A stretch of 21,721 bases of DNA from a virus. The DNA is taken from positions 1-21,721 of IMG/VR virus record IMGVR_UViG_3300049222_000082; one strand, 5' to 3'. Shown here in pieces: positions 3 to 21,300 of this stretch. Made by a program: the position numbers and the translations under genes. The notes under the pieces were generated by a model. That model ran no database searches, was not told the DNA's origin, and saw nothing but the letters and a program-made list of their open reading frames with translations. The number at the start of each line of letters is the position of its first letter. Positions within the stretch are counted from its first letter, which is position 1.

Positions 3-722
3 GCGGCGCGTGATATGCACACACGCATGACGATGCCTTGGGGTAAGACTGGTTGGCAGCTATGCCCGACCGCGCAGTATTTCAAATACACCGAAGCAAT
101 GACGGGTATGCAGAACAAGTTCTATGAATTGGTTCAAGAGTTCTTGGATAACTACGAGCAAGCTGTCGAGGATGCGCACTTGTTCTTGGGTGATCTTGCA
201 AACCCTGACGACTATCCAAGCCTAGAGAAGTTGTCACGCAAGTTCTCATTCACGCTCGACGAAATGCCGCTACCTACCTCTGGCGACTTCCGCTTGGACA
301 TCGCCAACGAAGGGATTAGCCAGTTGGCTAACAAGTACGAGAAGTTCTACACCACGCAGTTCGAGACCGCGATGGGTGACATATGGAAGCGTACCTATGA
401 CGCGCTGTCTAACATGTCGGAGCGTCTCGACTACGAGACCGATATCGTAGAGTACGTGGACGATGCGGGGCGTACCAAGCGCCGTAAGATCGGGGCCAAA
501 ACATTCCGCGATACGTTGGTGTCCAACGTGACCGAGATGATCGGACTACTCAAAGTTAGCAACGTGGCTAACTCACCTCACATGACTGCTATGGCTGAAC
601 GTCTGGAAGATGCGATGCTAGGAGTCACACCCGCTGCCCTGCGTGACGACGAGTCGCTGCGCAAGCAGACAAAAGCCGAAGTAGATGCAGCCATCGCTGC
701 GCTGCCAACACTAGACATATAA
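3..722 (+). CDS. DUF3150-like phage protein, 5' end cut by window
   Basis: The frame is open to the left edge (the codons before Met at 15 read Ala-Ala-Arg-Asp), and that Met has no ribosome binding site, so the true start is outside the window. The visible 239 residues are soluble, mostly helical and rich in charged residues. The stretch PWGKTGWQLCPTAQYFKY near the start resembles the 'LPWdd.GwRLLP..nyf' region I associate with DUF3150 phage proteins. These are often encoded beside a MoxR-like ATPase and a VWA protein, as here. The gene carries two copies of the dispersed palindrome (315-332 and 555-572). It ends 18 bases before the ATPase gene, so they are probably co-transcribed. The family assignment is tentative and the molecular function is unknown. 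Confidence 0.6.
   Translation, partial: AARDMHTRMTMPWGKTGWQLCPTAQYFKYTEAMTGMQNKFYELVQEFLDNYEQAVEDAHLFLGDLANPDDYPSLEKLSRKFSFTLDEMPLPTSGDFRLDIANEGISQLANKYEKFYTTQFETAMGDIWKRTYDALSNMSERLDYETDIVEYVDDAGRTKRRKIGAKTFRDTLVSNVTEMIGLLKVSNVANSPHMTAMAERLEDAMLGVTPAALRDDESLRKQTKAEVDAAIAALPTLDI
315..332. repeat. Dispersed palindrome copy, one mismatch
   Basis: ATTAGC-CAGTTG-GCTAAC, with A for G at position 1. It lies in frame in the DUF3150-like gene and encodes ISQLAN. Confidence 0.7.
555..572. repeat. Dispersed palindrome copy, perfect
   Basis: GTTAGC-AACGTG-GCTAAC inside the DUF3150-like gene, encoding VSNVAN. Confidence 0.9.
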
Positions 723-740
723 ACAGATTGGAGAAACCTC

Positions 741-1847
741 ATGTCAACTAACACAATGTATGCACTGAGCATCGAAGAAATCGCTAACGCCATTGCAGTT
801 CAAGTTCCTCTGCCACCAGAGGACAAGACAACCATCATCGTCGAGGGCGAGATGGGCAGCGGCAAGTCATCAATCCTCAAGGTATTGGCCGAGGATCTGC
901 CTGACCACAAGGCGATCTATTTCGACTGCACGACCAAGGCCGATGCGGGCGACCTGATGTTGCCAAAGTTCAAGGATTTGGAAGGCAACGACTATGTTAG
1001 CTTTGCGACTAACGAGGAGCTTGGTATGCACCTCAAGGATACGCCGCTCATTATTATGATCGACGAGGCAGGCAAGAACCGCGCTATCCAGAACCCGCTC
1101 AACCGTTTGTTCCAAGAGCGAATGATCGGTATGCATGAGCTACACCCAGAGAGCGTTGTCTTTGCGACGACTAACCTTGGGTTCGAGAATGTGGGCGACA
1201 CGTTCCTGCCGCATACTTGCAACCGCGTGACATTCGTGCGGATGCGCAAGCCGAATGCGATAGAGTGGATCGAATGGGGTATCAACCACAAGCTAGATCA
1301 CGTCACGCTTGCATGGGTCAAGGACAACCCGCAGGTGTTGGCATCGTCTGACGATGTGAAAGACCCCGAGGATAACGTCTACATCAACCACCCCAAAGCC
1401 AACGGGCGTCGATCATTCTGCACAGCGAGGTCTCTGCACAAGGCGTCAAACTACATGAAGATGCGCGACAAGCTCAACGACAAGTCTCTGACCGCGTTGC
1501 TCATTGGTACGATTGGTATGCGTGGCGGCATGGATCTGATGGCTCACCTCAAGTTAGCCGATCAGCTACCTAGTTTGGAGTCGATCAAGTCCGATCCCAA
1601 AAACGCCAAGGTTCCGACCACAGCGGCAGGTATCTGTATGGTGGTCTATCGGACACTGGCAGCTATCGAGCAAGACTGGCTCAACTCTTGGATGGACTAC
1701 ATGGCGCGGCTAGATGCCGAGGCGCAAGGTATGTTTGCCAATGGTGTCCGTGCGCCAAGATACAGCAAGCAGGCGATGGTCATGCAGAACCGCAAGTTCA
1801 CGCAGTGGGCAGCGGATAACTCGCATATGTTTTCATCAGATCAATAA
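741..1847 (+). CDS. MoxR/CbbQ-type AAA+ ATPase
   Basis: This 368-residue AAA+ ATPase probably works as a chaperone or remodelling motor with the VWA protein downstream. Walker A is GEMGSGKSS (residues 36-44), Walker B is LIIMIDE (103-109) followed by AGK, and sensor 1 is VVFATTN (139-145). This layout is typical of MoxR/CbbQ/NorQ-like ATPases, which pair with VWA partners (NorQ-NorD, CobS-CobT, RavA-ViaA). The C-terminal half is not recognised and is probably a lid plus a phage-specific extension. The start ATG at 741 follows TTGGAGAA at 728-735. The stop overlaps the AAGGAGG ribosome binding site of the VWA gene, so the two are translated together. Two one-mismatch copies of the dispersed palindrome lie inside (996-1013 and 1553-1570). 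The substrate is unknown. Confidence 0.85.
   Translation: MSTNTMYALSIEEIANAIAVQVPLPPEDKTTIIVEGEMGSGKSSILKVLAEDLPDHKAIYFDCTTKADAGDLMLPKFKDLEGNDYVSFATNEELGMHLKDTPLIIMIDEAGKNRAIQNPLNRLFQERMIGMHELHPESVVFATTNLGFENVGDTFLPHTCNRVTFVRMRKPNAIEWIEWGINHKLDHVTLAWVKDNPQVLASSDDVKDPEDNVYINHPKANGRRSFCTARSLHKASNYMKMRDKLNDKSLTALLIGTIGMRGGMDLMAHLKLADQLPSLESIKSDPKNAKVPTTAAGICMVVYRTLAAIEQDWLNSWMDYMARLDAEAQGMFANGVRAPRYSKQAMVMQNRKFTQWAADNSHMFSSDQ
996..1013. repeat. Dispersed palindrome copy, one mismatch
   Basis: GTTAGC-TTTGCG-ACTAAC inside the AAA+ ATPase gene, encoding VSFATN. Confidence 0.7.
1553..1570. repeat. Dispersed palindrome copy, one mismatch
   Basis: GTTAGC-CGATCA-GCTACC inside the AAA+ ATPase gene, in the other frame, encoding LADQLP. 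Confidence 0.6.
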
Positions 1848-1858: not shown

Positions 1859-3079
1859 ATGTTACAGTTAGGCGGTAAGCTAACCGAGGAGCAGCGGCTC
1901 GAAAAAGCCGTTGTTCAAATCATGCACAAACAACCTGCCATTGGCGGGTTGGTTATGTTGGGCAAGCGTGTTGTATGTGACAAGACACGCACGGCATGTA
2001 CCGATGGGCGTGACGAGTGGTATGGACGTGAGTTTGTACGTAACCTGAACGACAAGCAGCTACGCTTCCTCGTTCTGCATGAGATGTATCACAAGATGTA
2101 TCGCCACTTGATTACGTGGCGGCATCTCTGGAAGAAGTGTTCCGACACAGCCAACCGTGCGATGGACTATGAAATCAACATCAAGATACTCGACGAGTAT
2201 GGAGAGTTCGTGGAGTGGATCCCAAATGGCTGTCTCAATCAAGCCTATCGTGGTTGGGGCACAGCTAAAATCTTTGACGACATCTACGAGAAGCGCAAAG
2301 AACGCGAAGGCGGTGAAAGCGGTGACGGTGAAGGCGGCGGTGGCGATGGTGGCGGCGATGGTGACGGTGAACCATTCGACGATCACGATTGGGAAAGTGC
2401 TAAGGAGATGACCGAGGAGGAGAAGCGCGAGCTAGAGCGTGAGATCGACGAGGCAATCCGTCAAGGCAATATCGTGGCAGGCAAAACCGGAAGCGGTGGC
2501 AGTCGTGACATGGAGGAGTTGTTGCAGCCCAAGGTAGATTGGAAAGAACCGTTCCGCGAGTTCTTCATGGCTACCTGTGCGGGTAACGACAATTCGACGT
2601 GGCGCAAGCCCAAGCGTAGGTTCATTGCGCAAAACGTGTATCTGCCATCGACGTTCAGCGAGACCATTGGCGAGTTGATACTTGGCATCGACACGTCAGG
2701 CTCGACATTCGCGCCGGGAGTGTTGCCTGCGTTTATGACCGAGACAAAATCCATCTGCGATATGCTACGCCCCGAGCGGGTTCGCATCTTGTATTGGGAC
2801 ACAGCGATCTGTCGTGCTGAAGTGTACGAGCAGTACGAGTTGGACAACATGATAAACACCACGCAGCCCGAAGGCGGTGGCGGCACGGACGTTAGCTGTG
2901 TGGCTAACTACATCACAGAGCATAAGCTCGACCCGCAAGCTATCGTGTTGCTGACCGATGGGTATCTATTCGGAGGCTGGGGCAACTGGCATCATCCGAC
3001 CCTGTGGTGCGTGTTGGACAATGCGAATGCGCGTCCGACCAACGGCAAAACAATTCACATCAAATCGGAGGACATGTGA
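1859..3079 (+). CDS. HExxH metallopeptidase-like plus VWA domain protein
   Basis: The protein has 406 residues. The N-terminal half carries a zincin-like motif HEMYH (74-78) in a context like the 'putative metallopeptidase domain' family (DUF2201 N-terminal region). A Gly/Asp/Glu-rich linker covers about 150-175. The C-terminal half is a VWA-like domain with a MIDAS signature: DTSGS (278-282), GGGGTD with Thr343, and LTDG with Asp367. By analogy with CobT/NorD/ViaA-type proteins it should be the VWA partner of the ATPase encoded just upstream (11-base gap). The start ATG at 1859 follows AAGGAGG at 1846-1852. Whether the HExxH is an active protease is not known. Palindrome copies lie at 1867-1884 (one mismatch) and 2891-2908 (perfect). 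Confidence 0.85.
   Translation: MLQLGGKLTEEQRLEKAVVQIMHKQPAIGGLVMLGKRVVCDKTRTACTDGRDEWYGREFVRNLNDKQLRFLVLHEMYHKMYRHLITWRHLWKKCSDTANRAMDYEINIKILDEYGEFVEWIPNGCLNQAYRGWGTAKIFDDIYEKRKEREGGESGDGEGGGGDGGGDGDGEPFDDHDWESAKEMTEEEKRELEREIDEAIRQGNIVAGKTGSGGSRDMEELLQPKVDWKEPFREFFMATCAGNDNSTWRKPKRRFIAQNVYLPSTFSETIGELILGIDTSGSTFAPGVLPAFMTETKSICDMLRPERVRILYWDTAICRAEVYEQYELDNMINTTQPEGGGGTDVSCVANYITEHKLDPQAIVLLTDGYLFGGWGNWHHPTLWCVLDNANARPTNGKTIHIKSEDM
1867..1884. repeat. Dispersed palindrome copy, one mismatch
   Basis: GTTAGG-CGGTAA-GCTAAC, eight bases after the start of the VWA gene, encoding LGGKLT. Confidence 0.7.
2891..2908. repeat. Dispersed palindrome copy, perfect
   Basis: GTTAGC-TGTGTG-GCTAAC in the VWA domain, right after the Thr of the MIDAS region, encoding VSCVAN. 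Confidence 0.9.
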
Positions 3080-3373: not shown

Positions 3374-3608
3374 ATTTTTTACAGCTTTGATCTTGCACTA
3401 CGAGTTGCAGGGCAAAGAAGTCGAGGCAGTGGTGTGGTTTGAAACCGAAGCCGACTGCCAAGCGGTGATGCAGAATGATATTGCAGCACCATTGTACGAC
3501 GAGTTGTACGACTTGTACGGCAATAACCTAATGATGTTCTGCGAAGTATCGGAGGGCGTCTCAAATATAATCAGGCCGAAAACACGGCCAACACAGGAGA
3601 ATAACTAA
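3366..3608 (+). CDS. Hypothetical protein (80 aa)
   Basis: Begins MIEFFTALILHYE and contains an acidic, Tyr/Leu-rich middle (YDELYDLYG). No family is recognised. ATG at 3366 sits five bases after AGGGA (3356-3360). ATG at 3363 is possible but too close to that site. The start overlaps the stop of the zinc-knuckle gene, and the stop TAA overlaps the next ATG (TAATG), so the three genes look translationally coupled. Confidence 0.7.
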   Translation: MIEFFTALILHYELQGKEVEAVVWFETEADCQAVMQNDIAAPLYDELYDLYGNNLMMFCEVSEGVSNIIRPKTRPTQENN

Positions 3609-4606
3609 TGGCACTTACATACTCAGTATTCCAAACTTTTGCAGAGGTGGAGCATCACTACAATGCTATCAAACCTTTGATATCGAAATGTCACACTAAA
3701 GCAGAGGATGTTCGACCTATCGGAGATCGTAAACGTAAGTGGGAGCGTATCGTTAAACTCAGTGATTACTGCTATGCGCTTCTTGACGGGTATTGCTTTG
3801 GCGACCCCGTGTTTAAAACGTGGGGCACTGACAGAACCGTCACCAAAGCGGATACCGAATTTTACGCTGCTGTCGTGTGGCGCAAGCATCGTGACGGAAC
3901 CACAAGCGTTAAGATACGCAATGGCACGGGGCCGTGGAACCATGTCAGTAGGTATCAGTTCCTAACACGCCACGTACCGAGAGGTATGTACTTCCTAGTG
4001 TACAACGGGAAGCAAGCTATAAACCTGACCAGTAATTACAGAGATCACGATAGACATTTCCTAGCCAAAGGTAAAACCGTGCCAAAAGAGGTGAACCCCC
4101 ATTGGAAAAATTTTATGCACCGCAAAGACAACGCGGCGTTAGCCTTCAAGCTAACTCCTGACGGGAAGTGGCTGCGTGATCCAGAAACAGGCGAGGATCT
4201 GCCGATACCGCCGCGTGTCAACAAGGCGCTGAAAGCCAAGTTCAAGGAACCGCTGAGAGAGTTCTTTGAGTGGGGCATGACAATCGCAAACATGCTGCCG
4301 CTTACGGATAACGACTACATCCGAAAGATGCGCACCGAGGCGTATGACTATTATTCAGAAACAGAGGGCACAGGGTTCATACGATCTAGAGATACCTACA
4401 ACGTGAAGAATTGTAGGAGTATCATTACAGACCCCGAACATCCGCTGCGCCTACCTCTGTTTGTAGAGTTCGCGGAAACCACAGCCGATGGGTGGTGGCA
4501 ACATGCCTCTTACAAAGTGCAACAAGTAGAGACGAAGGAGGATCTGTCAGCAGTACGAAACAAATACAATAACTGGGTGAACAAGCACCTTGGTTTCAAA
4601 TCATAA
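3608..4606 (+). CDS. Hypothetical phage protein (332 aa)
   Basis: A soluble protein of 332 residues with many aromatic and basic residues and no recognised domain. It has no membrane segment or signal peptide. The N-terminal third could be a beta-rich domain (regular alternation around YAAVVWRKHRDGTTSVKIRN). The C-terminal half is helical and charged. The start ATG at 3608 shares its A with the preceding TAA and follows AGGAGA at 3596-3601. A perfect palindrome copy at 4138-4155 puts LAFKLT into the protein. Function unknown. Confidence 0.75.
   Translation: MALTYSVFQTFAEVEHHYNAIKPLISKCHTKAEDVRPIGDRKRKWERIVKLSDYCYALLDGYCFGDPVFKTWGTDRTVTKADTEFYAAVVWRKHRDGTTSVKIRNGTGPWNHVSRYQFLTRHVPRGMYFLVYNGKQAINLTSNYRDHDRHFLAKGKTVPKEVNPHWKNFMHRKDNAALAFKLTPDGKWLRDPETGEDLPIPPRVNKALKAKFKEPLREFFEWGMTIANMLPLTDNDYIRKMRTEAYDYYSETEGTGFIRSRDTYNVKNCRSIITDPEHPLRLPLFVEFAETTADGWWQHASYKVQQVETKEDLSAVRNKYNNWVNKHLGFKS
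4138..4155. repeat. Dispersed palindrome copy, perfect
   Basis: GTTAGC-CTTCAA-GCTAAC in the 332-aa gene, encoding LAFKLT. Confidence 0.9.
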
Positions 4607-4626
4607 TATAAAAATGGAGAATGACT

Positions 4627-5490
4627 ATGGGATACAATCCTTACTTAACGTCAGAAGCGATGCAACAGACAGAGAACAATAGCTACGTGGGTAATGAGGT
4701 AGCTAGGTTCGCAGATGCTGTGGCCGCTGCACTAAAAGCAAAGTGGAGCTACAAGCGTAGGAACAGCGTTTGGATCTATCGTGAGAACGAGATTTATGCG
4801 CTAGGTTTTGTGGGTTACGGTGACTTCACCGAAAAAGCCAACGGAGATGCTGCGTACATTGTTCACAGTCGCAACATCGAAAACTGTAGGTACAACGACT
4901 ACAACGCGCAGCATTACATGGCATTTGCCAAGCATTTTGAGAAAGGCCTATCTAATGCTACCCGCCACCTGCGCACCATACCGTGTCACGTAGCTGTGGA
5001 ACGAGAGCTTAGAAACCTACGTAGACAGATGCGAGACATAGACGACTACAGTTCGCGGAAGGTTAGGCAGTTGGCTAACGATGTCACCGATGGGCTAGGT
5101 CGTGGTAAAAGCTCGCCCTTGGAGCGAGAGCTTAAAAACCTTGTGAACACGGGGCATACATGGCTTGATGCAAACTTTGGTGAACAAGTCAAAACGTTCC
5201 TTAACTACAGTGGCGAGGACACGTCCTCCGGTGAGAGTATGTTTGATGTCGTGTATATCAACATCTCGCCACGCGGTACGCAGTCGGTCAACGTGTACAC
5301 TAACATGGATGGTAAAGAGTGGAATTGGGAGCCAGATCCGAGCAATCATTACGGGTGCGATGTGGATCAGCTAGACGAAGAGCTTAAACGTAAGGTGTCC
5401 ACATTGCAGATGGTTGAGCAAGGTACGTTTGTTCCGAATGTTGGCTTTCATGCTCTCACAGGGAGACTGTTCTATGTCGCTCAATCCTAA
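4627..5490 (+). CDS. Hypothetical phage protein (287 aa)
   Basis: The start is taken at ATG 4627, six bases after GGAGA (4616-4620). An ATG at 4621 directly abuts that site and is unlikely. The product is a soluble 287-residue protein. Its N-terminal half contains a beta-rich stretch (SVWIYRENEIYALGFVGYGDF), its middle a charged helix with Arg-rich repeats (ERELRNLRRQMRDIDDYSSR), and its C-terminal third a second beta-rich segment. No family is recognised. A one-mismatch palindrome copy (5062-5079) encodes VRQLAN. It overlaps the next gene by 17 bases. Confidence 0.7.
   Translation: MGYNPYLTSEAMQQTENNSYVGNEVARFADAVAAALKAKWSYKRRNSVWIYRENEIYALGFVGYGDFTEKANGDAAYIVHSRNIENCRYNDYNAQHYMAFAKHFEKGLSNATRHLRTIPCHVAVERELRNLRRQMRDIDDYSSRKVRQLANDVTDGLGRGKSSPLERELKNLVNTGHTWLDANFGEQVKTFLNYSGEDTSSGESMFDVVYINISPRGTQSVNVYTNMDGKEWNWEPDPSNHYGCDVDQLDEELKRKVSTLQMVEQGTFVPNVGFHALTGRLFYVAQS
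5062..5079. repeat. Dispersed palindrome copy, one mismatch
   Basis: GTTAGG-CAGTTG-GCTAAC in the 287-aa gene, encoding VRQLAN. The spacer is the same as in the copy at 315-332. Confidence 0.7.
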
Positions 5491-5854
5491 AATTATAAAT
5501 CTTGACACCCCCCTTGACGAGACGGTATATCGCATTTACATACAACCTTCATCGTTTGCTGTCGATGTAACGTGTTTAGGCACAGAGTGTTACGAGGTAG
5601 GGAACTTTGGTAAGTATGTAAGTGATTTGCCAGATTGGGTACAGGGGAAACTAGCAGTGCTTATGATGATGGGGGAAGATGACTACGGGCACATAATTGA
5701 AGGCGTAGGCTTTCGCAAAGACCGTCATGTTTTCTACGTTAGCCATGAGGCTAACCCTGTCAGTAGAGACAAGTTGGAAATGTTGGCGTTTTCTGTGTGT
5801 CTTAAAATTCCCTTGGAGTGTACGCGCCCTTTAGAAGGAGTTGTAGATGGGTGA
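5474..5854 (+). CDS. Hypothetical protein (126 aa)
   Basis: The start ATG at 5474 follows GGGAG at 5461-5465 and lies inside the end of the previous gene. The upstream in-frame Met at 5414 has no ribosome binding site. The 126-residue product begins MSLNPKIINLDTPLDE and is a mixed alpha/beta protein with no recognised motif. The perfect palindrome at 5738-5755 encodes VSHEAN. The stop overlaps the next start by eight bases. Function unknown. Confidence 0.7.
   Translation: MSLNPKIINLDTPLDETVYRIYIQPSSFAVDVTCLGTECYEVGNFGKYVSDLPDWVQGKLAVLMMMGEDDYGHIIEGVGFRKDRHVFYVSHEANPVSRDKLEMLAFSVCLKIPLECTRPLEGVVDG
5738..5755. repeat. Dispersed palindrome copy, perfect
   Basis: GTTAGC-CATGAG-GCTAAC in the 126-aa gene, encoding VSHEAN. 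Confidence 0.9.
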
Positions 5855-6364: not shown

Positions 6365-6916
6365 ATGGATATCACACAAGAACAACTGAAAAAACTTTTT
6401 GGCGAAATAAAAGAAGTCGTTATGATTATGGAGCGTGTTCCGCATAACGCAGGGGGCGCAGGGTTTGCTGTCACCACCGAGGGTGAAAGCTGCTTTGTCG
6501 GCAGGAATTATATCGAAAACAATAACCTGCAAGAAGGCGATTTCTTTACAGCGCGGGTGGCCCCTAACCAAAACAACCACAAGACAAACACTCCCTATAA
6601 GGTAGTGGGTAAGGTTGCGGTGCTAGACGGGCTAGATCCGTTTGATGAAACACCTTCACCGAGGGTGCAGCAAGCTACGCTAGAGGACCGCATTACGGCT
6701 CTTATGCGTGACGAAGAACACTCATATCCGCACAGGGTTGGGGAGTTAGCCAGTAAGCTAACTTCTGACACCGCAGCAGTTCAGCTTGCGTTACAGCGTA
6801 TGCACACTGCGGGTGAGATATGGGAAGCAAAGATAGAACGTAAGGGTACGCAAACAAAAGCGTCTTACGTTTTGTGGGCGCTCGACGACGAGTGGTTTGC
6901 ACTTGACTACGAGTAA
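6365..6916 (+). CDS. Hypothetical protein with possible OB-like part and winged helix (183 aa)
   Basis: The N-terminal about 90 residues look beta-rich (GGAGFAVTTEGESCFVGRNY... GDFFTARVAPN... YKVVGKVAVLDG), compatible with a small OB-like or cold-shock-like barrel. After a Pro-rich linker, residues about 105-160 read as a winged helix (EDRITALMRDEEHSYPHRVG, LASKLT, TAAVQLALQRMHTAGEIWEAK). This suggests a nucleic-acid-binding protein. The only near ribosome binding site, GGAGA at 6347-6351, is 13 bases from ATG 6365, an unusually long gap. The perfect palindrome at 6745-6762 falls in the winged-helix part. Both domain calls are inferences from pattern. Confidence 0.7.
   Translation: MDITQEQLKKLFGEIKEVVMIMERVPHNAGGAGFAVTTEGESCFVGRNYIENNNLQEGDFFTARVAPNQNNHKTNTPYKVVGKVAVLDGLDPFDETPSPRVQQATLEDRITALMRDEEHSYPHRVGELASKLTSDTAAVQLALQRMHTAGEIWEAKIERKGTQTKASYVLWALDDEWFALDYE
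6745..6762. repeat. Dispersed palindrome copy, perfect
   Basis: GTTAGC-CAGTAA-GCTAAC in the winged-helix part of the 183-aa gene, encoding LASKLT. Confidence 0.9.
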
Positions 6917-7811: not shown

Positions 7812-7818
7812 ACGAAGA

Positions 7819-7836: not shown

Positions 7837-7850
7837 AATTCACGGATAAG

Positions 7851-8198: not shown

Positions 8199-8216
8199 GT
8201 TAGCCGACTGACTAAC
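8199..8216. repeat. Dispersed palindrome copy, one mismatch, intergenic
   Basis: GTTAGC-CGACTG-ACTAAC, the only copy outside a gene. It lies immediately after the pentamer array and seven bases before the 9-bp hairpin. Confidence 0.75.
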
Positions 8217-8222
8217 AAAAAC

Positions 8223-8247: not shown

Positions 8248-8275
8248 ACAAACAAAAACTATGGAGAATAAACTT

Positions 8276-9400: not shown

Positions 9401-11174
9401 AGAATATATCCGCGATGATAGATTTGAGATTATTGGGCTAGCTGTAAAAAAGAACGATAAGCCAACACGTTGGCTACAAGGTGAGGAACTCACTACACGT
9501 TTCTTATCACACGTAGACCTCTCGTCCTGCGCTATACTTTGCCATAACACCGCGTTTGATGGGGCGATACTAGGGTGGCGATTTGGTGTGAAGCCGAAAC
9601 TGTGGCTTGATACAATGTGCATGGCCCGTGCGTTACATGGCACGGAGAAGAGTGTGAGCCTAAAGGCTGTGTCTGAACGCTACGGCGTTGGGGCCAAGGG
9701 TGATGAAGTTACCCGAGCGTTAGCCAAGCGGCTAACTGATTTTAGCGAAGAAGAAATTGCAAAGTATGCAGAGTATTCCCGCAACGATGTGGACCTGACA
9801 TACGAGATTTTTAAGTTGATGTTTAGCGGAATAGTTGGAAACCAGTTCCCACAACAAGAGTTACAGCTAATAGATCGCACGTTGCGGATGTTTATCGAGC
9901 CTACGCTTGACCTAGATTTGTTCTTGTTGGAGCAACATCTGGAAGAAGTGCGTGAACGCAAGGACAAGCTGCTACGCGATGCGAACATAACCGACAAAAA
10001 AGATTTGATGTCCAACAATAAGTTTGCGGAGCTTCTTATAAGTCTTGGCGTTGAGCCGCCGAGGAAGATTAGCCCGACGACAGGTAAAGAAACATTTGCC
10101 TTTGCTAAGTCTGACGAGGCGTTCAAAGCGTTGCTAGAACATGACGACGATAAAGTGCAGTCGTTAGTCTCTGCACGTTTGGGTACTAAAAGCACCTTAG
10201 AAGAAACACGTACCGAGAGGTTCATATCCATTGGTAAACGTGGACTTCTTCCGGTTCCGATTAGATATTACGCAGCGCATACAGGTCGGTGGGGTGGACA
10301 GGACAAGATCAACCTGCAAAATCTTCCGAGTCGAGGGCTGAACGCGAAGAAACTCAAGAGCAGTATTATAGCGCCCGAAGGCCATACACTCATAGATGCA
10401 GACAGCGCACAGATCGAAGCTAGAGTTCTGGCGTGGCTTGCAGGGCAAAATGATTTAGTTAGCCAGTTCGCTAACGGCGAAGATGTGTACATAAAAATGG
10501 CCGCTCGTATATACGGCTGCGAAGAAGAGAGCGTTACGAAAGATCAACGCTTTGTAGGTAAGACTACTATTCTTGGTGCAGGGTACGGCATGGGGGGCGT
10601 AAAGTTCCAAGCTCAGTTAAAAAACTTTGGCTTTGAGATACCCGTCGGAGAGGCTAAGCGGATCATAAGTATCTACCGCAGTATCAACCACAGCATAGAT
10701 AGGCTGTGGAAGGACGCGCAGTTTACTCTGGAACAGATGACACACAACGGTCCAGTTCGATTTGGTCGTAGGGGCGTTCTAAAAGTTCTACCAAAAGAGA
10801 ACGCCATCCAGTTGCCATCGGGTCTTTGCATACACTACGAGGACTTGAAGTATGAAATGACCGAAGAAGGGTCACATGAATACAGATACAAAGTACGGCG
10901 GGGCCGAAACAGAATTTACGGCGGTAAGATGGTGGAGAACGTGTGCCAAGCCATAGCTCGTTGTATCATTGGCGAGCAGTTGCTAAGTATATCCGAAAGA
11001 TATAAAGTTGTCCTTACCGTACATGACTCGATTGTTTGCTGTGTGAAGGATGAAGAAGTTCCCGAAGCGCAAGCGTATGTAGAAGAATGTATGCGCAAGA
11101 CACCAGATTGGGCCGCAGGCCTACCTATAGACTGCGAGAGCGGTACAGGTAAATCGTATGGGGAATGTGAATGA
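9330..11174 (+). CDS. Family A DNA polymerase with 3'-5' exonuclease
   Basis: The replicative polymerase, 614 residues, with a proofreading exonuclease followed by the polymerase domain. Exo motifs: LDFET (Asp7, Glu9), HNTAFDG (Asp77) and YSRND (Tyr149, Asp153). Polymerase motif A is DSAQIEAR (Asp358). Motif B is R407-xxx-K411 with GAGYG at 416-420. Motif C is VHDS with catalytic Asp566, where Ser replaces the more usual Glu of HDE. There is no 5'-nuclease domain, as is normal for phage enzymes. ATG at 9330 follows GGGAGG at 9315-9320. The stop overlaps the next ATG. Perfect palindromes at 9719-9736 (LAKRLT) and 10458-10475 (VSQFAN) lie in the exonuclease and polymerase parts. Confidence 0.95.
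   Translation: MDIVTLDFETYYDKEYSLSKMTTEEYIRDDRFEIIGLAVKKNDKPTRWLQGEELTTRFLSHVDLSSCAILCHNTAFDGAILGWRFGVKPKLWLDTMCMARALHGTEKSVSLKAVSERYGVGAKGDEVTRALAKRLTDFSEEEIAKYAEYSRNDVDLTYEIFKLMFSGIVGNQFPQQELQLIDRTLRMFIEPTLDLDLFLLEQHLEEVRERKDKLLRDANITDKKDLMSNNKFAELLISLGVEPPRKISPTTGKETFAFAKSDEAFKALLEHDDDKVQSLVSARLGTKSTLEETRTERFISIGKRGLLPVPIRYYAAHTGRWGGQDKINLQNLPSRGLNAKKLKSSIIAPEGHTLIDADSAQIEARVLAWLAGQNDLVSQFANGEDVYIKMAARIYGCEEESVTKDQRFVGKTTILGAGYGMGGVKFQAQLKNFGFEIPVGEAKRIISIYRSINHSIDRLWKDAQFTLEQMTHNGPVRFGRRGVLKVLPKENAIQLPSGLCIHYEDLKYEMTEEGSHEYRYKVRRGRNRIYGGKMVENVCQAIARCIIGEQLLSISERYKVVLTVHDSIVCCVKDEEVPEAQAYVEECMRKTPDWAAGLPIDCESGTGKSYGECE
9719..9736. repeat. Dispersed palindrome copy, perfect
   Basis: GTTAGC-CAAGCG-GCTAAC in the polymerase exonuclease domain, encoding LAKRLT. 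Confidence 0.9.
10458..10475. repeat. Dispersed palindrome copy, perfect
   Basis: GTTAGC-CAGTTC-GCTAAC in the polymerase domain just after motif A, encoding VSQFAN. Confidence 0.9.
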
Positions 11175-12144: not shown

Positions 12145-13680
12145 ATGCAGATTGTACAGGATAAAGCCATCCTGCTTACACTGCCTAACCCAAAGCAAAT
12201 CACAACAGTGATTGCGAAGAGTAAGGAGTTGTCGATGAATGAAGTCGTCGTGAATTGGGGTATCGACGAGGCCCACAAGTTGAAAGCATTGAATATAAAG
12301 GTGCCTTCACCGATTGAGAAACGCTATTCGTGGGTGGGTAAGTACAAGCCTTATCAACATCAGAAAGACACGGCGGCGTTTCTTACCATGAACAAGCGAG
12401 GCTTCTGCTTCAATGAGCAGGGCACAGGCAAAACAGCCAGTGCGATATGGGCCGCAGACTTCTTGATGAAGCAAGGTATCATACGTCGAGTCCTTGTCGT
12501 GTGCCCTCTATCTATCATGGACAGCGCATGGCGTGAGGATTTGTTTAGTTTTGCTATGCATCGCACCGTGGACGTTGCGCATGGCGCGAAAGAGAAACGC
12601 AAAAAGATAATAAACAGCGGGGCCGATTTCGTCATTATAAACTATGACGGTGTTGAGGTTGTGGCAGATGCTATCGCCAAGGGTGGGTTTGACCTAATCA
12701 TCATAGACGAGGCAACGCACTACAAGAACGCGCAGACCAAGCGGTGGAAAACGCTCAAGAAGCTTGTCAAAGATGATACATGGCTATGGCTTATGACAGG
12801 TACTCCTGCTGCGCAGTCGCCGCTAGATGCCTACGGCCTTGCCAAGCTAGTGAACCCACAGAGCGTACCTAGTTTCTTTAGCTCGTTCCGCGATCAGATT
12901 ATGGTAAAGGTTACTCAGTTTAAATGGATGCCGAAAGAGAATGCCAAGAGTACGGTATTCCGTGCGCTTCAACCTGCGATACGCTTCACCAAAGAAGAGT
13001 GTTTGGACCTGCCTGACATGGTGTACACTAAACGCAGGGTAGAGATGACCAAACAGCAGCAGACATTCTACGACCTGCTGCGCAAGCGTATGGTCATGCA
13101 AGTTGCCGGTGAGAGTGTAACAGCGGTGAACGCTGCGGTGAACCTAAACAAACTGCTACAGATATCGGCAGGAGCTATATACACCGACGAAGGTGATACG
13201 GTGCAGTTCGATATCTCCAACAGGTACAAGGTGCTGAAAGAGGTGATAGACGAATGCTCGCAAAAAGTGCTTGTGTTTGTACCGTTCCGACACACCATAG
13301 ACTTGTTAGCCGGTAAGCTAACTAAAGACGGCATAACGTCCGCTATCATACGAGGAGATGTAGCTGCGCATAAACGCACTGAGATATTCTCGCAGTTCCA
13401 AAGCGAGAAAGACCCCAAGGTCTTGCTTATACAACCCCAAGCCGCAGCACACGGGGTTACACTTACAGCAGCAAATACTGTTGTGTGGTGGGGGCCGACA
13501 CCCTCGTTGGAAACTTACGCACAAGCAAATGCTAGGGTTCACAGATCGGGGCAGAAGCATAAATGCACAGTGATACAGCTTGCGGGTTCGTTTGTTGAGA
13601 ACCGTATATACAGGCTGTTGGACGACAAGATAAGTACGCACACAGAGATTATTGATTTGTATAAAGAAGTGCTTGACTAG
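12145..13680 (+). CDS. SNF2-family (superfamily 2) helicase
   Basis: A 511-residue SF2/SNF2-type ATPase. Motif I is EQGTGKT (91-97), motif II IIIDEATH (185-192), motif III MTGTP (217-221), and motif VI QANARVHRSGQ (460-470). QxxRxxRxGQ is the SNF2/Rad54 form. A Tyr-Gln-His-Gln stretch at about 70 stands before motif I. It likely translocates on dsDNA to remodel replication or recombination intermediates. The start is ATG 12145, six bases after TTGGAG. An in-frame TTG at 12133 lies on the ribosome binding site and is rejected. The perfect palindrome at 13305-13322 encodes LAGKLT. A promoter-like sequence overlaps its stop codon. Confidence 0.92.
   Translation: MQIVQDKAILLTLPNPKQITTVIAKSKELSMNEVVVNWGIDEAHKLKALNIKVPSPIEKRYSWVGKYKPYQHQKDTAAFLTMNKRGFCFNEQGTGKTASAIWAADFLMKQGIIRRVLVVCPLSIMDSAWREDLFSFAMHRTVDVAHGAKEKRKKIINSGADFVIINYDGVEVVADAIAKGGFDLIIIDEATHYKNAQTKRWKTLKKLVKDDTWLWLMTGTPAAQSPLDAYGLAKLVNPQSVPSFFSSFRDQIMVKVTQFKWMPKENAKSTVFRALQPAIRFTKEECLDLPDMVYTKRRVEMTKQQQTFYDLLRKRMVMQVAGESVTAVNAAVNLNKLLQISAGAIYTDEGDTVQFDISNRYKVLKEVIDECSQKVLVFVPFRHTIDLLAGKLTKDGITSAIIRGDVAAHKRTEIFSQFQSEKDPKVLLIQPQAAAHGVTLTAANTVVWWGPTPSLETYAQANARVHRSGQKHKCTVIQLAGSFVENRIYRLLDDKISTHTEIIDLYKEVLD
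13305..13322. repeat. Dispersed palindrome copy, perfect
   Basis: GTTAGC-CGGTAA-GCTAAC in the SNF2 helicase gene, encoding LAGKLT. The spacer is the same as at 1867-1884. Confidence 0.9.
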
Positions 13681-13729: not shown

Positions 13730-14119
13730 ATGCAAGTTCCTGTAGAGAAGCTTACGAAAGCGTACATTAAGATACGCGAAAAACGTGCGGAGTTGTCGGC
13801 TAACTTCAAAGATGAAGACGCAAAGCTCGCTGATAAGATGAATACTATCAAGCGCGCATTGTTAGATCATTGCGAAGAACATAGCGTAGAGAGTGTTAGG
13901 ACAACGGAAGGGTTGTTCTACCGAACCGTTAAGCAGCGGTATTGGACAAATGACTGGGAGCAGATGCACCACTTTATTATGGAGCATCAGGTGCCAGAGT
14001 TGTTGGAGAAGCGGCTTAACCAAACCCACATGCGGCAGTTTTTAGAGGAGCATCCTGATGTGCTACCTAAAGGGCTTAATGTGGATAGCGAGTATGCAAT
14101 TTCAGTGAGGAAAAAATGA
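13730..14119 (+). CDS. Conserved-looking phage protein (129 aa)
   Basis: The start ATG at 13730 follows TTGGAGAG (13718-13725). The 129-residue protein has an N-terminal charged helix (about residues 5-50, likely coiled coil: KAYIKIREKRAELSA... DEDAKLADKMNTIKRALL). Then follow a Tyr/Trp-rich segment (YRTVKQRYWTND) and a helical tail ending in VDSEYAISVRKK. I associate this layout with uncharacterised phage proteins in replication regions. Function unknown. The stop overlaps the next ATG. Confidence 0.75.
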   Translation: MQVPVEKLTKAYIKIREKRAELSANFKDEDAKLADKMNTIKRALLDHCEEHSVESVRTTEGLFYRTVKQRYWTNDWEQMHHFIMEHQVPELLEKRLNQTHMRQFLEEHPDVLPKGLNVDSEYAISVRKK

Positions 14120-14331
14120 CGGATACCGTTTATTCTGATGTTAATAAAACCGCCGAGTATTTTGGCGTATCAATTCATACCATTAGAAAATGGGTGAAGG
14201 AGGGTCACATACCGCGTGACCATTACATTCGGGGCGGTACAACATACCGCTATAACATTCCTGCCATCGAAAAAGTGTTGACAGGAGAGGGGAAAGCCCA
14301 ACAAATGGAACTCCCATTAAAAACAAAATAA
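14116..14331 (+). CDS. MerR/excisionase-type helix-turn-helix protein
   Basis: A 71-residue DNA-binding protein with one MerR-like/HTH_17 motif: NKTAEYFGVSIHTIRKWVKE (10-29), then GHIPRDHYIRGGTTYRYN, the wing of excisionase-type winged helices. The C-terminal tail is short and there is no effector domain. It is the best local candidate for a sequence-specific regulator, and so for reading the dispersed palindrome, although that link is speculative. ATG at 14116 follows GTGAGGA and overlaps the previous stop. Confidence 0.82.
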   Translation: MTDTVYSDVNKTAEYFGVSIHTIRKWVKEGHIPRDHYIRGGTTYRYNIPAIEKVLTGEGKAQQMELPLKTK

Positions 14332-15259: not shown

Positions 15260-15279
15260 CTTAAATGGAGAGCAGCATA

Positions 15280-18102
15280 ATGAAAACAATAGAATTTTTA
15301 CGCTCTGTGCTAGGAGATGGTGGGTGTTACTGCGTATTTGCAGCAAATGCAGCTACTGATAAACGGGTACAGAAGTTTTACGATAGCCTAGAAGCTGTTG
15401 CCAAAGCCGCAGATCATTTCGATGCAGACGGTTTTGATGTGTATTTTGGGTTGGGTACACTGCGAGAAGCGGGTAGCCGCAAGAAAGAGAACGTAGTGTC
15501 TCTTAAATCTTTGTTCTTAGATTTAGATTGTGGCCCAAGCAAAGAGTATCCTGATCAGCAGCAAGCGGTGCAAGCTCTACGAAAGTTTGTAGGGGAGCTA
15601 AACTTACCTAAGCCAATGTTAATAAACTCAGGGCGAGGAGTACATGTGTACTGGCCCCTGACAAAACCTGCGCCGTTAGCCGAGTGGCTAACTGTTGCGG
15701 AACGGCTAAAGAAAGTTTGTGCAGAACGTGGGCTGTTGGCAGACCCTGCTGTAACCGCAGACGCGGCTCGCATATTGCGCCCGCCTAACACTCATAACTA
15801 CAAAGATAGCCCCCCGCTACCAGTAGAGCGCATAGGTGTGACGGAACCCGTGCCTGCGGAGCTTTCGGCGTTTATGCAGTTGTTAGGAGCGGAGTTAAAA
15901 CCCGTAAACACGCAGATAGATTTAGGGCCAGACGCACTGCAAGAAGCTTTGGCTGCAAACAAAGAGAGCGTGTTCAAGTCCATCGTGTCTAAGACTTTGA
16001 ACGGTCGAGGCTGTGCGCAGCTAAAGAACGTGTGGGAGAACCAGAACACCATCAGCGAGCCGCTATGGCGAGCGGGGTTGTCTATCGCAAAGTTCTGCAA
16101 GGACGCTGCCGTTGCAGCGGTAAAGATATCCGAGCAGCACCAAGGGTACGACCACGACGAGATGCAGCGCAAGTTGTCTGAGATTAAAGGCCCGTACACA
16201 TGCCAGAAGTTTGACGAGCTTAATCCCAATGTGTGTGGCGAGTGCCCGTTCAAAGGCAAGATAAAGTCTCCGATAACGCTAGGGCAGAAGATAAAAGAAG
16301 CGAGCGGCCCCGTAGAAGTCAAAGCCAAGAGCATGTTGGGTGGCCCTGTAGAGAAAACTTTTAGTATACCTGTGTTACCCCGTCCGTACTTTAGGGGTGA
16401 GACAGGCGGGGTATATCTACGCACCGTAAATAAAGAGGGCGACCCCGAAGAAATTGTTGTGTACCAGAACGATCTGTACGTTACACGACGACTACGTGAT
16501 GCAGAGTTGGGTGAGGTAATCGCGTTCTGCCTGCATCTCCCAAGGGATGGGGTGCGAGAGTTTACCGTGCCACTAACATCCGTAACTTCCCGCGATGAAT
16601 TCCGCAAAAATATGTCCATGCACGGCGTAGCTGTGTTTGGCATAAAACCATTGGAGGCATTGATGGCATATACACAGCGGTGGATTGAAGAATTGCAAGC
16701 AACAAATACAGCAGATGAAGCGCACCGGCAATTTGGTTGGGTGGACGATGATATTATGGAAGAGTTTGTTCTGGGGGATAAACTCATTACCGGCAACGAT
16801 ATTCGGTACAACCCACCCTCTTCAAAAACTGGGGGTATGCTAGAAGCGTTTATAGAGCGTGGGGAGAAAGACGCTATCGTGTCGAACCTAGAGTTCTACA
16901 ACCGCCCTGATTGGGAGATGCACCAGTTTATTATTGGCATGAGCTACGGCACCGTGCTTATGCCGTTCACAGGTATAAACAGCCTTGGGGTGCATCTCGT
17001 TAGCCAGACGGGTTTTGGTAAGACAACAACCTCGAAAGCCGCGCTATCTATATGGGGCGATCCCGAGTTGTTAATATTGCAGAAGAACGATACGCAAAAC
17101 TCTCGCATGAACCGTGGGGAGTTGTATCACAACCTGCTGCTTGTCTCTGACGAGATGACAAATCTTAACACGTTGCAGATGTCAGAATATGCCTATGCCC
17201 TGTCGGGCGGCAGGCAGAAAAATCGGCTTGCGCAAAGCGGCAACACGGAACGTGCGCGTGGTAAACCGTGGCGATTACTAGCCCTGAGTTCTGCTAACAC
17301 CAGTGCGTGGGATATATTGTCCAGAGAAAAAGCCGAGCCGAAAGCAGAGATGCAACGGTTACTAGAGTTAAAGGTGCCGCAGAAGCTTGTAGACCCGAAA
17401 CTAAAGCGTCACGCTGACGAGTTACTAAAAGCCATAGAACGTAACTACGGTTGGCTCGCGGTGGAGTATGTGCAGTGGGTCATAAACAACAGAGAGAACG
17501 CAGAGGCACTTGTGCTTGACGCACAGAGGCGAATAGATGCGGCGGCTGGGTTAGCCTCAGAAAATCGCTTCTGGTCTGCGGGATGTGCTACAGTGATCGC
17601 GGGTCTAATTATTGCCAAGCAATTAGGGCACGTAAACTATGATGTCAAAGCTGTGTTCGATTGGCTTGTGACCGAGCTACGGGAGCGCAAAGCCTTCGTC
17701 GATGATGTGGGTTCTTCTGTGCAGGAGACTTTGAGTAACTACATCGCAGAGCATTATAACAATGTGTTGATGATCGACAGCAACGAAGACTTGCGCGGTG
17801 CAGGTGAGAACGAGAACGGACTAGATGATCTTGTGCGCCCCGAAGCAGTGCCGAGAGGTCAGCTTGTAGCGCGGTATGAACCCGACACAAGCAAGTTGTT
17901 CTTGTTGCCAAAGCCCTTGAAAGAGTGGAGCGCCGACCATCAGCTTAACTATACCTCGCTTACAAACGAGCTACGGGATAAGTTGGGGGCCAAACGCACC
18001 AAGATGCGTATCACTAAAGGCACTAAACTAAACATGCCAGCAGTGTGGGTTCTTGAGCTAACATTTAAAATGGATATAGTAGATGAAGGTAGCGAAGATT
18101 GA
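15280..18102 (+). CDS. AEP-type primase fused to DUF927-like helicase
   Basis: A 940-residue two-function replication protein. The N-terminal primase of the archaeo-eukaryotic type has FLDLDCG (Asp81, Asp83), SGRGVHVYW with His122, and DAARILR (161-167). A cysteine cluster (TCQKFDELNPNVCGECPFKG, about residues 307-326) follows and probably binds zinc. The C-terminal part has DUF927-like helicase features: Walker A TGFGKT (577-582) and LLLVSDEM as Walker B. It would unwind the fork and lay down primers for the family A polymerase. The start is ATG 15280, after GGAGAG at 15267-15272. An ATG at 15265 overlaps that site and is rejected. The perfect palindrome at 15675-15692 encodes LAEWLT. Confidence 0.88.
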   Translation: MKTIEFLRSVLGDGGCYCVFAANAATDKRVQKFYDSLEAVAKAADHFDADGFDVYFGLGTLREAGSRKKENVVSLKSLFLDLDCGPSKEYPDQQQAVQALRKFVGELNLPKPMLINSGRGVHVYWPLTKPAPLAEWLTVAERLKKVCAERGLLADPAVTADAARILRPPNTHNYKDSPPLPVERIGVTEPVPAELSAFMQLLGAELKPVNTQIDLGPDALQEALAANKESVFKSIVSKTLNGRGCAQLKNVWENQNTISEPLWRAGLSIAKFCKDAAVAAVKISEQHQGYDHDEMQRKLSEIKGPYTCQKFDELNPNVCGECPFKGKIKSPITLGQKIKEASGPVEVKAKSMLGGPVEKTFSIPVLPRPYFRGETGGVYLRTVNKEGDPEEIVVYQNDLYVTRRLRDAELGEVIAFCLHLPRDGVREFTVPLTSVTSRDEFRKNMSMHGVAVFGIKPLEALMAYTQRWIEELQATNTADEAHRQFGWVDDDIMEEFVLGDKLITGNDIRYNPPSSKTGGMLEAFIERGEKDAIVSNLEFYNRPDWEMHQFIIGMSYGTVLMPFTGINSLGVHLVSQTGFGKTTTSKAALSIWGDPELLILQKNDTQNSRMNRGELYHNLLLVSDEMTNLNTLQMSEYAYALSGGRQKNRLAQSGNTERARGKPWRLLALSSANTSAWDILSREKAEPKAEMQRLLELKVPQKLVDPKLKRHADELLKAIERNYGWLAVEYVQWVINNRENAEALVLDAQRRIDAAAGLASENRFWSAGCATVIAGLIIAKQLGHVNYDVKAVFDWLVTELRERKAFVDDVGSSVQETLSNYIAEHYNNVLMIDSNEDLRGAGENENGLDDLVRPEAVPRGQLVARYEPDTSKLFLLPKPLKEWSADHQLNYTSLTNELRDKLGAKRTKMRITKGTKLNMPAVWVLELTFKMDIVDEGSED
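15675..15692. repeat. Dispersed palindrome copy, perfect
   Basis: GTTAGC-CGAGTG-GCTAAC in the primase domain, encoding LAEWLT. Confidence 0.9.
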
Positions 18103-18304: not shown

Positions 18305-18379
18305 TATACTTCGCCTGACAACTCACACTACAGGTTGTTCTCCATTTACTGGCCTCCACTATATGTGGGGGCCTTTTTT
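18302..18379 (+). ncRNA. Candidate small RNA with own promoter and terminator
   Basis: An extended -10-like sequence (TGA followed by TATACT at 18305-18310, weak -35) is followed about 40 bases later by a strong terminator. A transcript of about 62 bases starting near 18317 would carry GTTGTTCTCCATTTA (18334-18348), complementary to the AAATGGAGAATAAC-type ribosome binding sites of this genome. A copy of ATGGAGAAC at 18289-18297 forms an inverted repeat with 18337-18345. No expression evidence exists. Confidence 0.3.
18351..18379 (+). terminator. Rho-independent terminator between convergent units
   Basis: GGCCTCCAC (18351-18359) and GTGGGGGCC (18365-18373) form a 9-bp stem with one G-T pair and a 5-base loop. 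Six T residues follow at 18374-18379, overlapping the stop of the - strand gene. The T-run makes it a + strand terminator. The - strand side lacks a T-run. Confidence 0.9.
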
Positions 18380-21300
18380 ACATAAACAGAGACGAGTTTT
18401 TATCGAACTGCTGTGCATACAGCATATACTCGTCACGGCGTTTCGGGCTGAACGTAACCCCATGATACCGAGACTGCTTGCCAGAGATACGGGTCTTACG
18501 TGATCGCCGTATAGTCTCTGCTGTAATCGGATCGTTGGGATGTTCCTGATTATACTTGGCGATCTTACGCAGCACCGACGAGTTATCTGCACCGTCAAAG
18601 TAGTTGCGGAAGTACATGTCCAACAACTTCTTCTTACGACGAGAAGTCGCACGGTCTGCGCCTTTCAGCACCGCGTTCTCTTCAAGCTGCCTAGAATACT
18701 CTGCGGGTGCGAAGCCTAAAGTCTGCAACCCAACATGCGCAGGGTGTAGATCCTCAATGATCTTGTCACCGCCAACAGTCTGTACGCCTTCGGTAGCGTA
18801 TCGCACCGCCTTCATACCGTTCTTGATTGCTGCTGGAGACATAGCCTCAAAGCCCCGATAGAACTCACCCTCACCGAATAGTTTAAACCCACGCTCCGTT
18901 TGCGCAAAGATACCGACCAGCGGCCCACCACCATACTCTAGCGCTTGGTACAGCAGCGGTGTATCACTTCGTATAAATGTGTCTCTAAACAGAAGCTCGC
19001 CTAGCCCAACACGGCTGGCGAAGTTGATGCCAGTTACATAGTTTAGCGCCCCACGGTACGGGCCTTCCCCTAAATATGTACGCACGATGGTGTCTGCATC
19101 GTCCATCGGGTCATCTTCATCATCAGCAAACATGTTAAAGATCAGAGATGCCATGCCATAAAGCGGCATACCCGCGACCCCTGCCAAGACCCCTGCGGAA
19201 CCGTATATACCTGCAAGTTGATAGGCGGCTATACGTCTGGCTTCTTTGCTTTGTCCTGTTGTAGCGTCTTTGTACAAACTATGCAGCAGTGACAGCATGG
19301 ACACGCCATACCGCTTATACATGAACACTACGCGGCCTAGTGCGTTTTGGCTGATTGTTGGCGCTGCCCCCGCAGCAAGTCCGCCGTTCATCATCTCCGC
19401 ATCGTTGATGGCTTCTATGGCTGCATCCTTGCGTAGCTGTATATCTTCGGCAGAGTTAAGCTCCACGTTTGGATTTGCTTTTCTAGCTTTTTCTAAAGCT
19501 AGTTGGTACGCAGCTATCATAGATACTTCACGGTTAAAACGCTCGCCGTGAAATAGGAAAAACCCAGAGGCTTTATTAAACTTAGCCCAAAAACCGGTCA
19601 TGCGGTCGATATCTAGGATCTCATGGTCCAAAGAACGTCTAAACTGTCCTGTGTCTACACCGGCTTCAATAAGTTCTTTTAAGTCTTGCTGATCCTGCGA
19701 TAGGTCTTTTCTATCGAAGTCTATATTCTCAGCAGAGAACGCTGCGGGAACCTCTTGCACCTCTGTTGTAGGGTTTCCGTTATCATCGGTGCCAAACGTC
19801 TCGACTTTACGAGTACGCCCAGCGGTGCGTATAAGCCCCCCAGCTTTTTTCATAGCGTTCATAGTAGCGGGGTAAGATTTATATTTACCGCCTAGATACG
19901 GCAGGGCAATGAGCGGTATTTGCGACAGGTTTACCAAGCCGCCAGAGACGTTGAAGCCGAGAGTAAAGTTAAACGCAACGCCTGTAGCGGCTCTGGACAG
20001 CCCGCTCACCTGCGGAAACGCGCCTATTTCGTTGAACCTTTGTAGTTGCTCATACACCACGACTTGTCCCGGTGTAGCCGTGTCTTTTACTTCTGCGTTA
20101 AACGCCTGTTCAAGCCCAGCCCGCAGCCGTGAGAACTTACCTTTATATTCCATCTCTACAATCTGCCGCGTTATAGAGCGCGCACGATCTGTTATGGTAG
20201 TTATAGCATCAGGGTTGTATCCCAGCGCACCTTGTGCAATCTCGCCCGCTTTACGCTGTCTAAACGACTGCAAGTAAGATGTCTGCGGCAGTGTGTTCAA
20301 GATAAGCTCAGTTACTTCTGCCCGAAGTGTTTCGTTACCCGCCGCCTGCTCATTAACCTTTGACATAAGTTGGTTCACAAACGCAGTGTCTGGCGCTCTG
20401 CGGGTGTAGTGTTGTATATCTACTCCTCTTGGGAACACCATACTCTCCGCTATAAGTCGCTCTGCTATTTGCGAATCAGTCAGAGTGTCAGGAAACCCAG
20501 CCATACCCTTTGTAGCGGATATTTTAGCTTGCCCACCTTCAGAGTTCACATAGTTTTGTATTAACTCAGGCATTAATTTTTTATACGCCCGCGCACGTTG
20601 TGCATCGCTTTCATACGCTTCTGCGTAATACTCAATTCTACCTGTGTTAGGGTCTACCGCTTCAAACTGTATCCAAAAATCCCCTCTACGGTTGAGCGGG
20701 AAATACGGGTCGATAGAACCTTGTTCAGCAAGGCGTTGGAAAAATGAGTTCAGTACCTCATCTCGTGTGGCTGCATCCACTCCAGCATCGTCTAGGCGAG
20801 CGCCCAAAGCTCTACGAAGCTCATCTTTCTTGGCGCGGAACAAGTTACGTGCAAGCCGATACTGACGCATCCCATCTGCGCCGCCTTTGTTCACTTCTAC
20901 CACAAGATCTCGTACCCCCTGCCAACGTGCAAGGCGCTCCGTGCCTTCTCCATACGCTTCTATAGCTTGGAGTTCGTTTAGTTCAGGGTCAACTTCATAC
21001 AACGTACTCTCGTTAAACAGTCTATTCAGCGAAGGCGCTAAGTCTTTGTGGGTGTTAGCCCACTTGGCTAACCCATCTGTAATGACTTGTGTTTTAGCTG
21101 TTTCTTCTTGCAGCGTACCCGCAGCTTTGTTCATCGTGTTGTTTATCTGTGGGATTATAGTTTGCATCATGGGCGTAGGGAAATAACGCAACGCTATGTC
21201 GTCCATGTAATGCAGGGGTGTGGCTTTGGTTAGGATGCTTCCCAGCGTCTCGCCTAATACACTCAACCCACTTCGTGTTTTATCTTCCATAAACGCAAGG

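Follow-up and report, generated by a model that had tools for sequence, protein, structure and literature searches.

The DNA analyzed here is a 21,721-nt viral sequence (IMG/VR record IMGVR_UViG_3300049222_000082, positions 1-21,721; the whole of this stretch is referred to as the window), the genes of which include those for an ATPase, a DUF2201/VWA-like protein, a family A DNA polymerase, a SNF2-type helicase and a DUF927/primase-like protein. These genes and others in the window are punctuated by copies of an interrupted palindrome, GTTAGC-N6-GCTAAC. The nine perfect and six one-mismatch copies listed in an initial annotation of the sequence were all recovered at the starts given there, and none was added when two mismatches were allowed (Table 1). 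Judged against the 20 genes used in our tests, 14 of the 15 copies are intragenic; the single intergenic copy falls within a seemingly non-coding, G-rich stretch with degenerate repeats that lies between two genes (7812-8260).

Table 1. Palindrome copies in the window and G-rich tracts adjacent to promoter copies in other phages (ORF, open reading frame).
Feature	Sequence	Positions	Strand	Context
Copy, one mismatch	Window	315..332	.	Inside ORF 15-722
Copy, perfect	Window	555..572	.	Inside ORF 15-722
Copy, one mismatch	Window	996..1013	.	Inside ATPase ORF 741-1847
Copy, one mismatch	Window	1553..1570	.	Inside ATPase ORF 741-1847
Copy, one mismatch	Window	1867..1884	.	Near start of DUF2201/VWA-like ORF 1859-3079
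Copy, perfect	Window	2891..2908	.	Inside DUF2201/VWA-like ORF 1859-3079
Copy, perfect	Window	4138..4155	.	Inside ORF 3608-4606
Copy, one mismatch	Window	5062..5079	.	Inside ORF 4621-5490
Copy, perfect	Window	5738..5755	.	Inside ORF 5474-5854
Copy, perfect	Window	6745..6762	.	Inside ORF 6365-6916
Copy, one mismatch	Window	8199..8216	.	Sole window copy outside the 20 genes used
Copy, perfect	Window	9719..9736	.	Inside family A DNA polymerase ORF 9330-11174
Copy, perfect	Window	10458..10475	.	Inside family A DNA polymerase ORF 9330-11174
Copy, perfect	Window	13305..13322	.	Inside SNF2-type helicase ORF 12133-13680
Copy, perfect	Window	15675..15692	.	Inside DUF927/primase-like ORF 15265-18102
G-rich tract	L111	9830-9855		
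G-rich tract	L123	2488-2511		
G-rich tract	L144	9855-9880		

The number of copies is far beyond chance expectation. With up to two mismatches allowed, the 15 matches compare with a mean of 1.15 in dinucleotide shuffles (largest 4, n = 100), and the same pattern read backward, used as a control, has no match in the window. Across 300 codon-preserving shuffles of the 20 window genes, perfect copies averaged 0.10 (maximum 1) against nine observed, and copies with at most one mismatch averaged 0.85 (maximum 4) against 14 observed. The suggestion of the initial annotation that selection acts on the DNA rather than on the encoded proteins is thus borne out by the very shuffles that it had proposed as a check. 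The intragenic copies are found in two of the three reading frames, seven in each; in the third, unused frame, the palindrome arms would place TAG and TAA in frame.

The genomic context of the window is provided by the IMG/VR record G001 (61,378 bases, contig of L005), to which it is 99.88-100% identical and both ends of which it spans without a gap, so that G001 can be read as the map of a closed or permuted genome. The structural genes of G001 occupy one strand and the early and replication genes the other, the two sets diverging beside terS. All 21 copies with at most one mismatch are located at 39967-58048, that is, in the early/replication arm, the last of them being the last copy of the window, and there are none elsewhere in the 61.4 kb. 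Phages of this group carry approximately 9-21 copies each. Copy density declines with distance from terS, from 3.1 per kb at 1-2 kb to 0.6 per kb at 7-9 kb, in a set of 13 records, some of which are near copies of each other; this gradient is modest in single records and significant only with site types pooled (Fisher p = 0.003, four site types with one record each).

Relatives were collected through the DNA polymerase (80 loci kept of 114 found) and through a TerS profile search (80 loci across the divergent region), and at least 577 TerS-like stretches were confirmed in IMG/VR. We read this phage group as marine, its members being metagenomic contigs, and the phages are known here by contig alone. 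The expectation that relatives would share the site holds for the close ones, in that all 31 loci with at least 78% polymerase identity have at least two perfect copies of GTTAGC-N6-GCTAAC each, but fails for the more distant ones, none of the 49 loci at 60-72% identity having a perfect copy. Several of the groups in the latter range carry other palindromes. The dispersed palindromes detected in relatives are GTAGTG-N3-CACTAC, GTAGTT-N3-AACTAC, CGTGG-N7-CCACG and TGTACG-N2-CGTACA, as well as CTAGGAC-N2-GTCCTAG in a smaller set; no clear palindrome was found in L071, L072, L076, L079, L084 and G012, contigs or parts that may exclude the promoter region. The closest cultured relatives by polymerase are distant, namely Rhizobium phage RHph_TM3_14A with its near copies (36.6% identity) and Pseudomonas phage KPP25 (33.5%). 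Phage RHph_TM3_14A (MN988472; L106/L107) possesses 38 copies of GTTACC-N6-GGTAAC with at most one mismatch, 15 of them perfect, in the same 18-bp layout as in the present phage; these sites are unmarked in its annotation, and the record names a putative integrase and att sites. Unlike the copies in G001, they are present in both arms, with 17 of the 38 not fully within annotated genes, and the first early protein of this phage is not detectably related to its counterpart in the phage studied here. The same search found no dispersed palindrome family in KPP25 (whole) or in Rollin (bases 20001-61282 only), despite the relationship of their polymerases.

The gene that covaries with the palindromes is the first early gene, denoted P, which lies beside the divergence of terS and the early genes and encodes a product of about 180-240 amino acids (aa). 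In the present phage, the P product has 191 aa (P191), and its gene occupies positions 40114-40689 of G001 (L087:114-689), approximately 1.7 kb to the left of the window; the product in G009 has 185 aa (P185). Among the loci drawn in by P191, 11 of 13 repeat GTTAGC-type sites, whereas those drawn in by P185 repeat GTAGT-type sites in 19 of 22 cases, with five of nine more drawn in by its alignment, down to 50% P identity; the nine P-recruited loci without repeated sites have fewer than 400 bases of sequence after P. For a broader survey, 132 loci with TerS were considered, of which 27 had less than 1100 bases upstream; the rest comprise 64 distinct regions, 63 of them with a P call, the ORF with the most blastp neighbours being taken as P where a choice was needed. 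The first early proteins of these 63 regions include 56 in one blastp-linked family, six in the family of P243 and one alone, and all phages of the P243 family have the TGTACG type. By blastp, the first early protein of L212 does not belong to the main P family; the GTTAG-N8-CTAAC sites of this phage are mixed, and a similar palindrome may have originated there independently. The profile comparison of P185 with P191 gave an E-value of 0.002 at 14% probability, the link between them having come through blastp intermediates.

Site type follows P more closely than it follows TerS. For 52 typed phages (11 of the 63 being omitted for want of a site type with two copies and a clear lead), a descriptive comparison of pairs, which are not independent of each other, shows that those with P at least 45% identical share the site type in 285 of 293 cases, all eight exceptions involving L193, which has mixed sites, whereas those with TerS at least 85% but P less than 45% identical share it in only 28 of 128. 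The pairs L130/L186 and L179/L181 combine 100% identical TerS with P 30-31% identical and differ in site type; the type of L179 rests on one copy, but L180, identical to it in both P and TerS, has four. In addition, the P tree requires five changes of site type and the TerS tree eight, counts that omit rows without a called type and that, on the P side, come from a quick tree with long-branch warnings that includes the unrelated P243 rows and L212.

A copy of the palindrome typically precedes P. Once five misplaced P starts were corrected, 61 of the 63 upstream regions were found to have a site before P, 51 of them exact (49 of 63 before the correction) and 10 with one mismatch; the starts in question, in L125, L127, L142, L153 and L158, had been called too far upstream and were corrected for this count only, that of L158 to a homology boundary without a start codon, and some other starts may be slightly off. 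The nearest exact site is 110-150 bp before the P start in 37 of the 51 cases. A further copy, located 40-49 bp ahead of the P start, is present in most phages with GTTAGC sites; in G001 it lies downstream of a TATAAT box. A G-rich, G-quadruplex-like tract such as GGGGGGTCGGGGGTAGGTGGGGG (Table 1) is found immediately to the left of the promoter copy in phages belonging to several site types; it could mark an origin or a packaging or transcription signal.

The differences between site types can be traced in place. Loci L208 (GTAGTG type) and L185 (GTAGTT type) are 77.7% identical over 8.7 kb; their P proteins are 30% identical and the five other ORFs of at least 300 aa 56-83%, some small ORFs being as divergent as P or without a match. 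Six of the 11 L208 sites have GTAGTG...CACTAC where the homologous places in L185 have GTAGTT...AACTAC, with flanks 71-92% identical; three of the remaining sites differ in part, one is the same and one, the promoter copy, did not align. The presence of the other letter in both half-sites at scattered places is what a changed binding specificity predicts for a DNA-binding protein, and the palindromes may well be targets of this kind.

With respect to the identity of that protein, covariation and position suggest that it is P. The structural model of P185, built from an 18-row alignment, is poor (predicted local distance difference test, pLDDT, 53.9), and that of P191, from a 36-row alignment, is fair (pLDDT 85.5, predicted template modelling score 0.69) and mainly helical, with two short strands preceding a long helix. 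The P191 model had a best Foldseek match in the PDB at an E-value of 0.97, no match at Z of at least 5 among the 179 chains aligned with VIA-align, and in BFVD one uncharacterised phage protein (E = 3.7e-4); the P profile matched sequences of solved chains at best with E = 0.2. No helix-turn-helix (HTH) family matched P191. An Arc-like repressor PHROG gave a best E-value of 0.0006 and was matched by two of 36 family members at E 0.1. The basic-rich segment at residues ~103-125, which differs between site types, is a candidate DNA contact. The annotation had pointed instead to the HTH protein encoded at 14116-14331 as the possible binder. Among the sequences searched, 63, of different palindrome types, encode this small MerR/excisionase-like protein, and L035 (CGTGG-N7) does not differ from L044 (GTAGT-N5) in its DNA-binding core, although the site calls there rest on only four and three copies, respectively; this protein is an unlikely binder and was set aside, palindrome type going instead with the first early gene, which is located outside the window. 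The small ORF adjoining P was likewise rejected as a specificity gene because it does not follow site type in L208, L221 and L185, the ORF at that place being 72% identical between L208 and L221, the site types of which differ, and 32% between L221 and L185, the types of which agree.

We therefore consider, with a probability of roughly 0.6, that P is a dimeric, autoregulated regulator and that the palindromes are its operators, mostly intragenic in this phage, through which early transcription is probably damped. Under this proposal, the phage-encoded P dimer would regulate its own gene by binding one or two copies next to the P promoter, and would occupy some 8-20 others distributed along the early/replication operon; the bound copies would then probably shut down or damp early transcription by acting as elongation roadblocks, by bridging to the promoter copy, or both. 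Silencing is a step beyond the prediction that P is the binder, and is the most likely effect of binding.

Several observations weigh against this interpretation. P191 has no clear match among Pfam or PHROG families and none among solved folds, so homology lends no support to DNA binding by P. Neither P243 nor the first early protein of the Rhizobium phage is detectably related to the main P family in profile comparisons, and two of the 63 regions, L233 and L239, have a P-family gene with no known-type site before it. The GTAGTG site is common to P proteins that are only 36-44% alike, so the site is linked to a P subtype rather than one to one with P. Locus L221 has both GTAGTT and GTAGTG sites, and in comparison with it both half-sites are different in only four of the 11 L208 sites, with letters conserved in others. 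The 64-aa ORF adjoining P shows divergence as well between L208 and L185 (28%). When L219 is compared with the more distant L123 or L223, the majority of sites are at non-matching places, so that, of the two alternatives raised in the annotation, density is kept better than position. None of six records shows a significant density gradient by the Kolmogorov-Smirnov test (p 0.10-0.66). The location of the promoter copy immediately before a -35-like hexamer in several types would suit an activator too. Finally, no match to PF00589, PF00239 or PF13614, the only integration and partition families tested, was found in any of five records of 58-62 kb, and therefore ordinary lysogeny is without support in this group; a TerS profile scan of bacterial genome contigs confirmed no more than three relatives, all distant (39-51%) and on contigs 3-7.6 kb long.

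Among known systems, the CI-type operator of phage lambda lies at the promoter of the regulator itself, and lambda has few, clustered operators. The sites described here resemble this kind in their dyad symmetry, as for a dimer, and in their presence at the promoter of the presumed regulator, and differ from it in being scattered inside genes; lambda CI binds as a dimer according to a passage in PMC9283540. The closest parallels are with Cluster A mycobacteriophages. As described in sections of two papers (PMC6550527, PMC9283540), phages of this cluster (L5, Bxb1, TipsytheTRex) have more than 20 dispersed copies of one short site and encode a regulator (183 residues in L5), the gene of which is preceded by the site in an intergenic region, and site and regulator diverge together. 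The phages studied here share the many dispersed copies, the site before the regulator gene if P is taken as such, and the joint diversification of P and its sites, which recalls the immunity specificity discussed in part of PMC6550527. The stoperators of Cluster A are, in the relevant passages of PMC9283540, asymmetric 13-mers that are bound by a monomer, oriented with transcription and located in short intergenic spaces. In contrast, the sites here are dyad-symmetric palindromes of 14-18 bp and are mostly intragenic in the window, and P may differ as well in lacking a recognisable HTH. The stoperator-like silencing role named in the annotation thus remains the leading interpretation, whereas asymmetry, orientation and intergenic placement do not hold; because of these differences, we do not file the system with stoperators, although it may work like them, and rate it as a related but distinct variant, symmetric and mostly intragenic. 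No description of these sites was found in the titles or abstract openings of open-licence PubMed Central literature. The packaging, recombination and modification roles, also offered in the annotation, can be set aside by argument: they fail to explain why the copies in G001 are restricted to one arm and why they covary with one early gene.

An alternative that we regard as rather unlikely is that P is an architectural or segregation protein that folds, bridges or positions the phage DNA during early replication. The RacA/ram, SlmA, Noc and MatP systems and the N15 centromeres are likewise based on short palindromes scattered along DNA, and the symmetric, unoriented and, in the window, mostly intragenic sites, at their observed number per phage, would suit such a function, as would the presence of copies in both arms of RHph_TM3_14A. 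Unlike in those systems, the copies in G001 are restricted to a single transcription arm, a copy precedes the gene of the presumed binder in nearly all regions, and there are several site types; moreover, the lack of PF13614 matches in the five records, which concerns this ParA ATPase family only, separates these phages from ParABS and argues against a centromere.

The possibility that P is an activator or elongation factor, the copies helping the polymerase through the 18-kb early unit, appears improbable. It would account for the frequent location of the promoter copy just upstream of the -35-like hexamer and for the greater density of copies near the promoter. Nevertheless, the distance between the promoter copy and the promoter varies between types, and the copy 40-49 bp before the P start is better suited to repression.

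The sites could also, in principle, act as RNA or single-stranded DNA hairpins, in processing, antitermination or as hairpin promoters of the kind known from phage N4, rather than as double-stranded operators. Any inverted repeat can pair, and the G-C versus T-A difference between L208 and L185 preserves pairing; furthermore, eight of the 31 off-type inner pairs in GTAGT phages are paired double changes. The other 23 are uncompensated, and at the inner arm position of GTTAGC phages, where 14 of 66 distinct sites depart from the consensus, none is compensated by a Watson-Crick pair (three T-G combinations could wobble). The spacer provides no pairing signal either. Across 47 GTTAGC-type site groups, with both strands counted, 71% have C and 23% T as the first spacer base, and 83% have A or G as the second, a symmetric pyrimidine-purine preference without Watson-Crick covariation (22 pairs versus 25.9 expected, 16 versus 15.9 and 6 versus 12.0). 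Hence, although C is indeed the commonest first base, as the annotation had noted in describing a spacer that begins with C and ends with G, the frequency of T makes the site better written GTTAGCYRNNYRGCTAAC. A hairpin function is accordingly rejected as very improbable, and the evidence favours a duplex operator read by two subunits: as the annotation had proposed, the palindrome behaves as two half-sites that differ together between phages, which is consistent with binding by a dimer.

The binder could in principle be a host protein, with palindrome type following the host, but this is scarcely credible, because even with identical TerS a difference in P between phages goes with a difference in site type and because the site regularly precedes P.

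Given the preference for P as a regulator that binds these palindromes, the way in which P and its sites have diversified jointly is reminiscent of immunity specificity and, by analogy, may reflect exclusion of related superinfecting phages, with the difference from temperate phage immunity that the three integration and partition families searched had no match in the five records. Extending this line of thought, we tentatively suggest, as a scenario that we hold at less than even odds, that a large phage group in which no integrase was found silences its own early arm through a new DNA-binding family without a recognised fold and through intragenic palindromic operators, with superinfection selecting for specificity and replacement of the regulator driving the rewriting of both half-sites in place. 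The present analysis connects an early gene that lacked annotation with its probable DNA sites across a widespread group of phages and offers a natural experiment in which the regulator appears to have been replaced and scattered operators, many of them embedded in genes, differ accordingly. If P silences the early genes, phages without a detected integrase would possess their own stoperator-like, immunity-like control; if it does not, the sites would represent a new dispersed architectural system.

At the far end of the window, the segment 18378-21695 on the minus strand encodes part of a very large protein that matches the DarB-like antirestriction PHROG 10089, and the corresponding places in G009 and G010 are occupied by ORFs of 2189 and 2147 aa, respectively.

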